Virus record (IMG/VR): IMGVR_UViG_3300050343_000280
Coordinates: 1-61,315 of that record
DNA length: 61,315 nucleotides
Origin: a virus
Direction: 5' to 3' (one strand)
Part shown: in pieces, positions 15,784 through 21,979 of the stretch
Layout of the letters: each line of letters starts with the position of its first letter
Numbering within the stretch: the stretch's first letter is position 1
Position numbers and translations under genes: made by a program
Notes under the pieces: generated by a model
Database searches by the model: none
What the model was told of the DNA's origin: nothing
Seen by the model: the letters and a program-made list of their open reading frames with translations, nothing else

Positions 15784-16967
15784 TTGGTCACCCTTCGCCC
15801 ACACCAGAAAAAAGCAGTTGAATGCTATGCTTGCCTATGACAAGGGTCAGGTCATTGTCCCTACAGGTGGTGGCAAGACTATCTGTATGATTCAGGATGT
15901 TGTGGAGAACTGTAAGTATATTGACAATGGAATGACTATTGTTGTTGTTGCTCCACGTATTCTGTTGGCAGAACAACTCTGCAAAGAATTCCTTGAGTTG
16001 ATTGATACAACTCACACACATGTGATGCACGTTCATAGTGGTGAAACAGACCACTATTCACAACCAAACCAGACAGATTCACGTATTCACTAACACTGCT
16101 CGCGACTGCTGGTGAGAATGTTATCATCTTCACCACATATCATTCACTGCATCGTGTTGTGGAGGCAGACATTGAGGTGAATACAATTTACTTTGATGAA
16201 GCACACAACAGTGTTCAGCGTAACTTCTTTCCTGCGACTGAGTTCTTTGCTAATGAAGCTGATCGTTGCTATTTCTTCACTGCAACACCTAAACATTCTC
16301 TTGCTGTATTCAAACCAGGCATGAATTGGTCTGTTTATGGTCAGGTTCTGTGCAATGTTCCTGCTCCTGAGTTGGTTGAACAAGGATACATTCTCCCTCC
16401 TAAAGTTGTAGTCAAGCAACTGCCTATGATCAGAGGTCGTAAGGTGATGTTTGCTGATGATTGTGAGAATCTGCTTGAGACTATCGATGACAACAACATC
16501 GACAAGATTCTGATTGTGCTCGTTCAACAAAGCAGATTCATCGTCTTCTCACTCAATCTGATTTCTGCCTGCAACTCAAAGAGCGTGGCTATTCTTGGAT
16601 GACGATCACATCGAAGACTGGTGCAATCATCGATGGTAAGAAAGTCAACCGTGACGTATTCTTCAAGACTCTGAACACTTGGGGCAAGGAGAGACACTCG
16701 TTTTGTTGTGATGCACCACTCTATTCTGTCTGAGGGCATCAACGTCAAGGACTTGAGGCAGTTCTATTCATGCGGAACATGGATTACATTGGAATCAGTC
16801 AGTCTATCGGTCGTGTGATCCGTCTGGGTGGTGCTGAGAAGACCTTTGGACTGGTTTGTGTGCCAGTCTTTGATAAGGTGGGAATCAGCACTGCTAGAAG
16901 CGTTCAGGCAGTTGTTGACACCGTATTTGAGCAGGGTGAACCTGCAATCTCAGTCGTCCGGAAGTAA
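15784..16967 (+). pseudogene. SF2 (DEAD/DEAH-type) helicase broken by several frameshifts
   Basis: A single SF2 helicase is spread over all three frames. Probable start is TTG 15784 after AGGAG, giving LVTLRPHQKKAV. Motifs in order: Walker A PTGGGKT (15860-15880), DEAH box (16195-16206), TATP (16279-16290), HHSILSEGINV (about 16710-16745) and motif VI QSIGRVIRLG (from 16800). Changes of frame are needed near 15820, 16068, 16103, 16520, 16690 and 16750. Every piece stays recognisable, so the breaks are recent or are sequence errors. An intact product would be about 390 aa, resembling phage UvsW-like or restriction-type helicases. As given it is not translatable. Confidence 0.75.
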
Positions 16968-19233: not shown

Positions 19234-19239
19234 TTGGGA

Positions 19240-19253
19240 CACTTGAATAAGTG
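19240..19253. promoter_or_regulatory. Palindrome CACTTGAATAAGTG (operator candidate)
   Basis: Perfect 5-bp half-sites around GAAT, in the gap before the nuclease-methylase cassette. A related palindrome GACAGTTGAATAAGTGTC stands at 21962-21979, right after the cassette and before the next promoter. Confidence 0.5.
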
Positions 19254-19260
19254 GCACACT

Positions 19261-19281
19261 GACCCCACGGGGTCTTTTTTT
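19261..19281 (+). terminator. Rho-independent terminator after CP12
   Basis: GACCC / GGGTC stem with a short CACG loop followed by seven T residues. It closes the CP12 transcript and insulates the cassette promoter directly downstream. Confidence 0.85.
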
Positions 19282-19282
19282 A

Positions 19283-19291
19283 TGCTATAAT
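19283..19291 (+). promoter_or_regulatory. Extended -10 promoter TGCTATAAT
   Basis: TGnTATAAT directly after a terminator and 59 nt upstream of ATG 19350. This is a strong bacterial-type box, identical to the one at 17003-17011. It should drive the three-gene cassette 19350-21961. Confidence 0.65.
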
Positions 19292-19349
19292 ACATGAGTG
19301 GGAATGAGCAGTGCCCTAAAGACTCTCCCAAATCACAAATGAGGTTATT

Positions 19350-19886
19350 ATGAACATTTCAACAGTCAAGACTGCCATTCGAGTTGGTACGTTTGCATTG
19401 AATGATGGAACTTCCAAAGCACGACTGAAACTGATCTATGAGAATCTTTCTAAAGAAGTTCTCAAGGATGATGCTGGTCGTGTATATCTTCTTGTCAAAG
19501 ATGGCAAAATCATGAAGATCGGAGGTAGTATTTCCAAAGGTGGTATTAAGTCTACCATGTCCTTCTATGTGTCTGCTAACACCGGACGCCCATCAATCCG
19601 TTCTTTCGGTATCAATCAACTGGTGTACGAAGCAACACTGAAAGGTGAAGAAGTATCTGTCTACATGATCACCTCCGAACAGGTATCTGCTCCTGTTAAG
19701 GGACTTTTTGGAACAGAGCAAATGTCAATCTCTGCATTCAAAGAAATGGAAGAGAAGTGCATTGCTGATTATGTTGCCTCAGAGGATAACTTCCCTGCCT
19801 GGAACTATCAAGAAGCAGGTAAAGCATGGGAGCAGTACATTCAAGAAGAACACGCTGCCATCCTAACCGCAACTGCTAGAGGTTGA
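19350..19886 (+). CDS. GIY-YIG-like nuclease (tentative)
   Basis: 178 aa. The strand-loop-strand RVYLLVKDGKIMKIGGS resembles the GIY...YIG core. The first Tyr is present but the YIG triad is KIG. The later KEMEEKCIADYVAS and FPAWN resemble the metal-binding Glu and the E...PxWN end seen in GIY-YIG restriction enzymes such as Eco29kI. An Arg-containing RPSIRSFG lies between. It is the first gene of a cassette with a ParB-like protein and a DNA adenine methylase, which supports a DNA-cutting role. Base composition is more even than in the flanking phage genes. The fold call is by eye. Confidence 0.5.
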   Translation: MNISTVKTAIRVGTFALNDGTSKARLKLIYENLSKEVLKDDAGRVYLLVKDGKIMKIGGSISKGGIKSTMSFYVSANTGRPSIRSFGINQLVYEATLKGEEVSVYMITSEQVSAPVKGLFGTEQMSISAFKEMEEKCIADYVASEDNFPAWNYQEAGKAWEQYIQEEHAAILTATARG

Positions 19887-19931
19887 CAACTCCTCTCACA
19901 TTTGCTAAAATTCAATTAACCAACTTTTATT

Positions 19932-21062
19932 ATGACAACATCTAATTTCGATCAATCTTTGAAGCAAAAGACCACGGAGTATTTTGTCAATGAGTATTTT
20001 TCTGAAGATGCAACTGATCCTGAAACTTGGGATTATGAACCTTCAACTTATGGTGTAGATGGTGTAGAAATAGTTACCGATAAACATATGGTGGCATTTG
20101 ATGAATTTGAGGGTGGAATTGATAATCCTGGAAGAGATGAAATTGATTACAATGCTGTAGATGCACTTGAAGGATGTGTTAAATCTAAGGGAGTTGTAAC
20201 GAAAGGCAGCAGAGTTATCTATTATGATGTAGATACTGGTGAAAAGATCAATGGCATTAAGAGATGTATTGTTGCTAATAGATTGGGATTTAAGGGATGG
20301 ATGGGTGTGGGTGTAAGATTCAAAAATGCAACTGCTAAAGAAGATTTTGCTTATGCTAGCAACAATCCCGTTGATGGAGATGCTACATTGGTTCATCAAC
20401 TTCCCACAAAGGGAGATACCATTGCATATGCTATAAAGAGATTTCAAAAAACAGGTAGAACTAACATCAGCGAAAAAGAAATCTCTGACCTGGTAGAGGA
20501 GAAAACTAAGAATAATTTTCACATTACAGCATCAAACAGGGGAGATATTGTCGCCAAAGTTCTAGTTGCACTGCAAAGCAAAGGTAAAACTTCTGAACGA
20601 TATATTCGCTATGATGATGTTCAGATGGAAAAAGAACTGGATTCTCTGGTTAAATTTGAACATGACTGGGCACTGAAATACTGGGATGAATATGATGATA
20701 ATGATCCCAGTAATGCTGTTCTAATCTTTATCAATATGGCAGGCAATGGTATCTCTGGTTCTTATCAATACATTGAGAGAAAACTTGCTTTTGCTCAACG
20801 AAAGGGTCTTCCTGCTTGCTTTGTTATCGCAGCAAAAGCACCAAAACGCAAAAATGCGACAATTACTTCAAAACGTGCTAATATCTTAACTGGTGATATT
20901 AGAAAACTTGAAGAAACTGTTTGCGAAATGTTTAAGCATGATGTAAATGTTTATGGGAGGATTCTAGCACACAATCACCCTAGTGCTCAGCATGTCTTCC
21001 TCCGTCAAGACTCTGAGAATGAACCTGAAGGCACACTAATTTACGCAAAAGATATTGTATGA
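19932..21062 (+). CDS. ParB-like domain protein (tentative)
   Basis: 376 aa. Around residues 45-130 there is a ParB-type layout: DEIDYNAVDALEGCVKSKGV, then INGIKRCIVANRLGFKGW. These match the ParB/Srx pattern of a leu-rich helix and then a (G)xxRxxAxxxLG box that binds nucleotide and DNA. The usual GxR is NGIKR here. A helical, HTH-like part (TNISEKEISDLVEE) follows, and the C-terminal half (about 220-376) is unrecognised. The gene ends in a 4-nt overlap with the methylase. Together with the nuclease-like gene it forms a cassette; a specificity or partner role is inferred. Confidence 0.5.
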   Translation: MTTSNFDQSLKQKTTEYFVNEYFSEDATDPETWDYEPSTYGVDGVEIVTDKHMVAFDEFEGGIDNPGRDEIDYNAVDALEGCVKSKGVVTKGSRVIYYDVDTGEKINGIKRCIVANRLGFKGWMGVGVRFKNATAKEDFAYASNNPVDGDATLVHQLPTKGDTIAYAIKRFQKTGRTNISEKEISDLVEEKTKNNFHITASNRGDIVAKVLVALQSKGKTSERYIRYDDVQMEKELDSLVKFEHDWALKYWDEYDDNDPSNAVLIFINMAGNGISGSYQYIERKLAFAQRKGLPACFVIAAKAPKRKNATITSKRANILTGDIRKLEETVCEMFKHDVNVYGRILAHNHPSAQHVFLRQDSENEPEGTLIYAKDIV

Positions 21063-21961
21063 AGACACCGATTCGCTATGCTGGTGGTAAGTCTAAGGCA
21101 TATAAAATTATAACTGAATATATCCCCAGACTTCCATATCCCAAGCGAATCATCTCCCCCTTTATTGGGGGAGGTTCTTTAGAATCAAAGTGGTCATCTG
21201 AACTTGACATCCCCGTGTATGGATTTGACATCTTTCATGCACTTGTAAACTTCTGGAATGTACTGTTAGATTCACCCAATGAGTTTGCAGATGCACTCCA
21301 GAAGTTGACTCCTACTAAGGAGAACTATGCTGAGATAAAAGAACAACTGGTTCGATGGGATTATACACAAGAGATGCTCAAAGATTGGAGCACAGATCAC
21401 TACAAACGTGAATCAATTCAATTAGATAATATCACTGCTGCGGCATATTATTATTTTAATCACAATCTTTCTTATGGTCCGATGTATATGGGATGGATGA
21501 GTAAGATCTATGAGAGTCAGACAAAATGGGATAAGATGGTGCATTACATCAGGTCTTATCGTAATCCTAATCTGCATGTAGAGGAGCAAACTTTCGATCA
21601 AGTTATTCCGAATCATCCAAACGATTTAATTTACTTAGATCCTCCATATTATTTGGATAAAGACTCCGACAATAAAATGTTGAAGGGAATGTATCCCAAT
21701 TGCAACATTGATGTGCATCACAAGGGATTTGATCATGAGAAATTGAGAGATCAGTTACATAATCACAAAGGTAGTTTCATTTTGTCGTATAATAATTGTG
21801 AGACAATCCGTGAGTATTATAAAGACTTTGATCTTTACTATCCTCAGTGGCACTATTCATATCAGGCAGGAGAAAAACGTGTAGGGAAACATAAAAAAGA
21901 ACGTGGTGTTGAGCATAATAAAAAAGAATCGCACGAAATTCTTATTGTGAAGACTAATTAG
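21059..21961 (+). CDS. dam: DNA adenine methylase (Dam / D12 class)
   Basis: 300 aa, the normal length. N-terminal RYAGGKSKAYKIITEYIP and SPFIGGGSLE give the AdoMet motif I (FxGGG). Motif IV DPPYY sits in LIYLDPPYYLDKD near residue 200. FILSYNNCETIREYY and a basic C-terminus complete the D12 layout. It transfers a methyl group to N6 of adenine, often in GATC. Phage Dam usually protects phage DNA from host or phage nucleases. It is the last gene of the cassette, overlapping the ParB-like gene by 4 nt. Confidence 0.9.
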   Translation: MKTPIRYAGGKSKAYKIITEYIPRLPYPKRIISPFIGGGSLESKWSSELDIPVYGFDIFHALVNFWNVLLDSPNEFADALQKLTPTKENYAEIKEQLVRWDYTQEMLKDWSTDHYKRESIQLDNITAAAYYYFNHNLSYGPMYMGWMSKIYESQTKWDKMVHYIRSYRNPNLHVEEQTFDQVIPNHPNDLIYLDPPYYLDKDSDNKMLKGMYPNCNIDVHHKGFDHEKLRDQLHNHKGSFILSYNNCETIREYYKDFDLYYPQWHYSYQAGEKRVGKHKKERGVEHNKKESHEILIVKTN

Positions 21962-21979
21962 GACAGTTGAATAAGTGTC
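21962..21979. promoter_or_regulatory. Palindrome GACAGTTGAATAAGTGTC (operator candidate)
   Basis: Near-perfect inverted repeat starting one base after the methylase stop. It shares TTGAATAAGTG with the palindrome at 19240-19253 and precedes the promoter at 21989-22017. Confidence 0.5.

Follow-up and report, generated by a model that had tools for sequence, protein, structure and literature searches.

What a phage gains from placing a third gene inside a restriction-modification (R-M) pair is the question raised by a cassette in a 61,315-nucleotide marine cyanophage record (IMG/VR IMGVR_UViG_3300050343_000280; the whole stretch analysed is called the window below). A sequence-only reading had placed three genes encoding proteins of 178, 376 and 300 aa here, and open reading frames of exactly these lengths are present on the + strand: R (19350..19886), X (19932..21062) and M (21059..21961), with a 4-bp overlap (ATGA) between X and M. 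The upstream neighbour of the cassette is a CP12 gene, and the genes around it are common to Synechococcus phages. A UvsW helicase gene is found near R-M/X cassettes again and again (Syn30, S-PM2, S-CAM22, S-RIM2, P-RSM4, L001 and L002), as if this neighbourhood were an insertion hotspot in cyanomyoviruses. The UvsW-like gene of the window (~15818-16967) appears split across three frames (ORFs of 91, 147 and 65 aa) compared to the ~410 aa helicase of relatives, owing either to natural frameshifts or to assembly errors.

The 178-aa protein had been read as GIY-YIG-like, and this assignment held. R matched the phrog_1111 endonuclease (1e-19) and the PADLOC Type II REase (REase_II; 5.7e-6), and when a profile of 12 R sequences was searched against the PDB, R.Hpy188I was the sole significant match (E=9.3e-5; next best 0.3). 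Y46, K56 (in MKIGG, where KIG replaces YIG), E134 and N152 are invariant in the alignment of these 12 sequences. An Arg is found at R84 in the Syn30 clade and at R85 in the S-PM2 clade, a numbering that is not a residue-exact mapping to Hpy188I 104/105, and the Cys pair is absent from the Arg-bearing loop of the window R. The homology to Hpy188I, the Lys in the YIG half, the Tyr, the Glu, the alternative Arg and the linked alpha-class D12 methylase of the M.HpyAORF481P type together place R in the R.HpyAORF481P branch of the Hpy188I family. For this branch, PMC2630997 describes a Lys in the YIG half, an Arg at either of two adjacent alternative positions and an alpha-class D12 methylase as partner; it reports function for R.Hpy188I and R.HpyF17I only.

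M, previously called Dam-type, matched the D12 family (E=1.9e-24) and the PADLOC Type II MTase (2.8e-83) and contains the SPFIGGGS and DPPY motifs, which identifies it as a D12 (alpha-class) N6-adenine DNA methyltransferase of the M.HpyAORF481P family. Relatives of M (42-50% identity) are followed 3' by R homologs (E=1e-44 to 1e-49) in ~19 genome_contigs loci, nearly all from Helicobacter, and by a protein unrelated to R, termed R2, in ~17 further loci. The bacterial operons that pair the R and M families give good support to the reading of the cassette as an R-M system. R and M are also adjacent in Syn30, S-P4, S-PM2, S-SCSM2R and Sf-CH11. The statement that no named system has this composition did not survive for the R-M pair, which is already known because the S-PM2 member, including M.SspSPM2ORFAP, was listed in 2008 (PMC2630997) and the same pairing occurs in Helicobacter. 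A literature search on the H. pylori HP0481 methylase family found no target site or function, and M may work alone. In Helicobacter locus L175 (4869-6865), M and R are parted by an insertion encoding another methylase and a protein of 357 aa, resembling the nested R-M systems described in PMC2630997.

R2 is an unannotated family of ~235-260 aa, with no match in Pfam or PADLOC, that is found beside M where the nuclease would be, both in phages (L031, L033-L035, L040, L041, L045, L046, L048 and L057) and in bacteria (L133, L139, L185 and L201). It stands in for R in several phages, and its PD...VK pattern fits that of PD-(D/E)XK nucleases, making it a putative nuclease. R2 is likely to be a new restriction enzyme family that shares the target site of M.

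The middle gene is variable in both presence and kind. Among 73 distinct M genes from viruses, 20 have an X between the nuclease and M; in the phage loci without it, the R and M genes share 4 bp or almost abut. Three sequence-unrelated families fill the slot: XA, which comprises the window protein and its relatives in L028 (81%) and L029 (29%), XB (phrog_2558) and XC (phrog_2615). The trio read from the window therefore does have counterparts, as nuclease-X-M sets are present in other viral loci. Ten nearly identical M genes (those listed at 94-96% identity to the window M by tblastn) form a clade in which the slot is filled in every member, all three X families occur and the nuclease varies too. 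Two R clades are found with XA and two with XC, and XB occurs with R2 and with three R clades. Mapped on the M tree, nuclease type requires at least 20 changes and X at least nine. The X module has thus been refilled repeatedly from different families next to a nearly constant methylase, and nucleases have been exchanged unusually fast around it, a sign that nucleases of several types may recognise a common target. That differing proteins occupy the same slot in related viruses points to X as a third element, so far little described, of the restriction systems that viruses carry.

Relatives of XB and XC also sit with unrelated methylases, several of them with nucleases too. The arrangements are R.RsaI-Dam-XC in Syn19; REase_II (5.6e-15), an MTase fragment and XC in P-RSM4; a PD...EGK protein, XB and an MTase in S-RIM2; a PD...IECK protein, XC and an MTase fragment in S-CAM4; a 208-aa protein, an MTase and XB in S-CAM22; and XB with an MTase in S-IOM18. 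Among further viral contigs, six of 13 loci with XB relatives adjoin a methylase, a raw count over the methylase types queried. Counter-examples, in which X relatives lie away from methylases, were found in S-RIM8 and ACG-2014d. None of the 19 loci with distant XA relatives adjoins a methylase, so XA itself may, judging by these relatives, be a general cyanophage protein. The pairing of a methylase with a ParB-like protein reaches beyond cyanophages, since a shorter XC relative with FIIDGHSRREAW adjoins a methylase in Shigella phage Tf. In this Felix O1-type phage (L218 1490-3199), the methylase is followed by a 243-aa protein with the ParB-like motif IDGHSRREAW.

These distributions bear on the possibility that X is unrelated cargo or an anti-rival factor (anti-restriction, or a DUF262/GmrS-like nuclease) in a variable slot, with R and M acting independently of it. 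Such a view, which we regard as doubtful, would account for the rapid swapping of X families, for the relatives of all three families found away from methylases, and for the absence of X from most phage R-M pairs and from all 80 bacterial R-M loci examined (flanks up to 4 kb). However, X invariably lies between nuclease and M in these sets and is translationally coupled or close to M, the methylases beside XB relatives belong to other families, and three-gene sets of a similar kind recur with unrelated nucleases.

The promoters separate X and M from R. A single terminator-insulated promoter had been proposed for the trio, and its elements are present on the + strand 5' of R: a terminator-like hairpin of the intrinsic type, GACCCCACGGGGTC followed by T7 (19261..19281), and an extended -10 promoter for R, TGCTATAAT (19283..19291), with no -35 match. 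This terminator/promoter site is the sole instance in 61 kb of a T6+ run followed by TGNTATAAT. A comparable hairpin/T-run lies directly 5' of R in L009, L018 and L019, and a terminator/-10 arrangement like that of the window is found 5' of R in L009, L018 and S-PM2. The proposal had, however, overlooked a better promoter serving X and M, a sigma-70-type TTGACA-17-TAAAAT (19883..19911, + strand; 11/12 matches) whose -35 overlaps the R stop codon. Because this second promoter at the R/X junction serves X and M, the trio is not one simple transcription unit. Sigma-70 promoters for X-M (10-12/12 matches) were found in all 14 nuclease-X gaps examined, each better than composition-shuffled gaps at P<=0.05, and in nine of the 14 the promoter is built on the nuclease stop codon.

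The two palindromes said to bracket the cassette are present, an imperfect one, GACACTTGAATAAGTGGC (19238..19255, no strand assigned), directly 3' of the CP12 gene and a second, GACAGTTGAATAAGTGTC (21962..21979, likewise), abutting the M stop. They are not specific to the cassette. A relaxed form of the motif occurs nine times in the window (2.4 expected from shuffling), eight times in Syn30 (3.1) and 11 times in S-PM2 (3.0), and several copies sit immediately 3' of stop codons. This excess rules out a special role in the cassette and identifies the palindromes as a general cyanophage intergenic element.

Between the R promoter and R lies a leader, GGAATGAGCAGTGCCCTAAAGACTCTCCC (19301..19329, + strand), that is a candidate operator or mRNA control site. 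Nearly every base of it is unchanged across eight loci with R 72-92% identical to that of the window, and all seven exact matches in viral_contigs are located before R genes. The form GGAATGAGCAGCGCCNNAAAGACTCTCCC, 5' of R in the window, L001-L007, L017 and L022, is more conserved than R itself. The leader had no match in Rfam at E<=5, and folding gave no stable RNA structure or hairpin. A leader peptide is unlikely, because one codon varies at its first two positions and keeps its third. At the start of the XB mRNA, directly 3' of TATATAAT, there is a stem-loop, for example GTATGCAC-AAAGTA-GTGCATAC, whose pairing survives changes in both arms (L001, L030-L033, L036, L038, L040 and L048); it is possibly a 5' mRNA hairpin.

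An R-specific, strongly conserved leader, a promoter that is always present for X-M and a dyad closely 3' of the -10 in XB genes would all suit X as a transcription regulator that, like the C proteins of Type II R-M or DndB, sets the timing of R and/or of its own promoter or represses them, instead of working with M. We consider this unlikely, as the leader is just as conserved in loci that lack X (L003-L006, L017 and L022), the gap 5' of the window XA has no dyad, and the dyad arms of XB vary while XB is >90% identical, as would be expected of a hairpin in the mRNA more than of an operator.

To what extent X resembles ParB was examined by structure prediction. The AlphaFold model of XA (17 sequences) had a mean pLDDT of 69.5, with the N-terminal half mostly at 75-90. 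Foldseek comparison to the PDB returned ParB proteins at ranks 1-8, at a marginal best E=1.9e-3, and sulfiredoxin, which has the same superfold, at rank 11. The earlier description of the 376-aa protein as ParB-like is thus supported at moderate model confidence, and the N-terminal half of XA is predicted to have a ParB fold. XA proteins conserve YDVDTG...G..R...NN, and relatives carry YIDIDTGDIITGGHRHDA...NNERVFHATLN, recalling ParB boxes. ParB/Spo0J proteins have the CTP-binding motifs GERRxRA and ENxxR. Neither is intact in the window X, where GIKR and NNPV replace the GERR-like and NNER motifs (GGHR and NNER in distant relatives), so CTP binding by the window X is doubtful. XB (IDGQHK...LNT.R) and XC (FI(I/L)D.NTR) show a resemblance to ParB in short motifs only, and the structure model of XC was uninformative (pLDDT 48). 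Pfam searches gave no credible match for the X families. Common ancestry of XA, XB and XC was also considered, and profile-profile comparison found no significant link among them.

Collectively, these results make it probable that the cassette is a Type II R-M system of a phage, with an exchangeable, ParB-like, methylase-linked module that decouples the methylase from the nuclease. Computational observations establish which families R and M belong to, their pairing, the layout, the promoters and the recurrent slot; from them we infer enzyme activity, target, biological victim and the biochemical role of X as follows. M would methylate adenine at its target site and protect the phage genome, and R would cut unmethylated copies of that site, such as those in the host chromosome or in a co-infecting phage. 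R expression would rely on the separate terminator-insulated extended -10 promoter. X, as a putative ParB-fold DNA-binding protein acquired together with its own strong promoter, would be co-made with M through the 4-bp overlap. Because X and M would be made together and R from a separate promoter, modification could precede restriction. The X module would then give modification a promoter of its own and M a partner that binds DNA, and the most likely role of X is to help or regulate methylation. The idea of a decayed or irrelevant R beside an M that is a plain protective methylase against host restriction is improbable, since, common as Dam-type methylases are in phages, R is intact, conserves its active-site residues, retains its own promoter and conserved leader, and sits in a slot refilled repeatedly by other nucleases.

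For a lytic phage with a full R-M system, the nuclease must spare freshly replicated phage DNA, and a promoter plus ParB-like module by the methylase would be one solution to self-cutting. We suggest, more tentatively and at somewhat less than even confidence, that phage Type II R-M systems recurrently include, as an exchangeable third component, a ParB-fold protein that brings its own promoter and controls or boosts modification. If true, the ParB-like module lets a lytic phage use a restriction enzyme with its own replicating DNA spared. The interphage weapon proposed from the sequence is plausible by analogy, as rival exclusion is documented for marseillevirus R-M (PMC7253447). Host DNA degradation is an equally possible role.

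Among known systems, the ParB N-terminal domain (pNOB8 ParB, M. xanthus ParB and PadC) has a fold like that predicted for the N-terminal half of X. Unlike partition ParB, the window X has GIKR and NNPV. Near the cassette no ParA-like gene was identified and no parS was seen. Marseilleviruses and chloroviruses likewise encode a full R-M system with both methylase and nuclease, and the nuclease can degrade the DNA of rival viruses without the system; these systems differ in belonging to eukaryotic viruses and in using other enzyme families, and the passages of PMC7253447 consulted mention no ParB-like component. In the Hpy188I (TCNGA) system, R.Hpy188I is a distant homolog of R, whereas M.Hpy188I is gamma-class and unrelated to the phage M; TCNGA specificity is therefore not transferable to M or R. 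The closest counterpart, R.HpyAORF481P/M.HpyAORF481P, shares both enzyme families, their adjacency, the KIG half-motif, the alternative-position Arg and the alpha-class D12 methylase, but the sections of PMC2630997 consulted report no third gene of the X kind. The gene order is M-R in the Helicobacter loci examined and R-(X)-M in phage. The R-M pair is thus already known, and the less ordinary part of the cassette is its middle gene, X.
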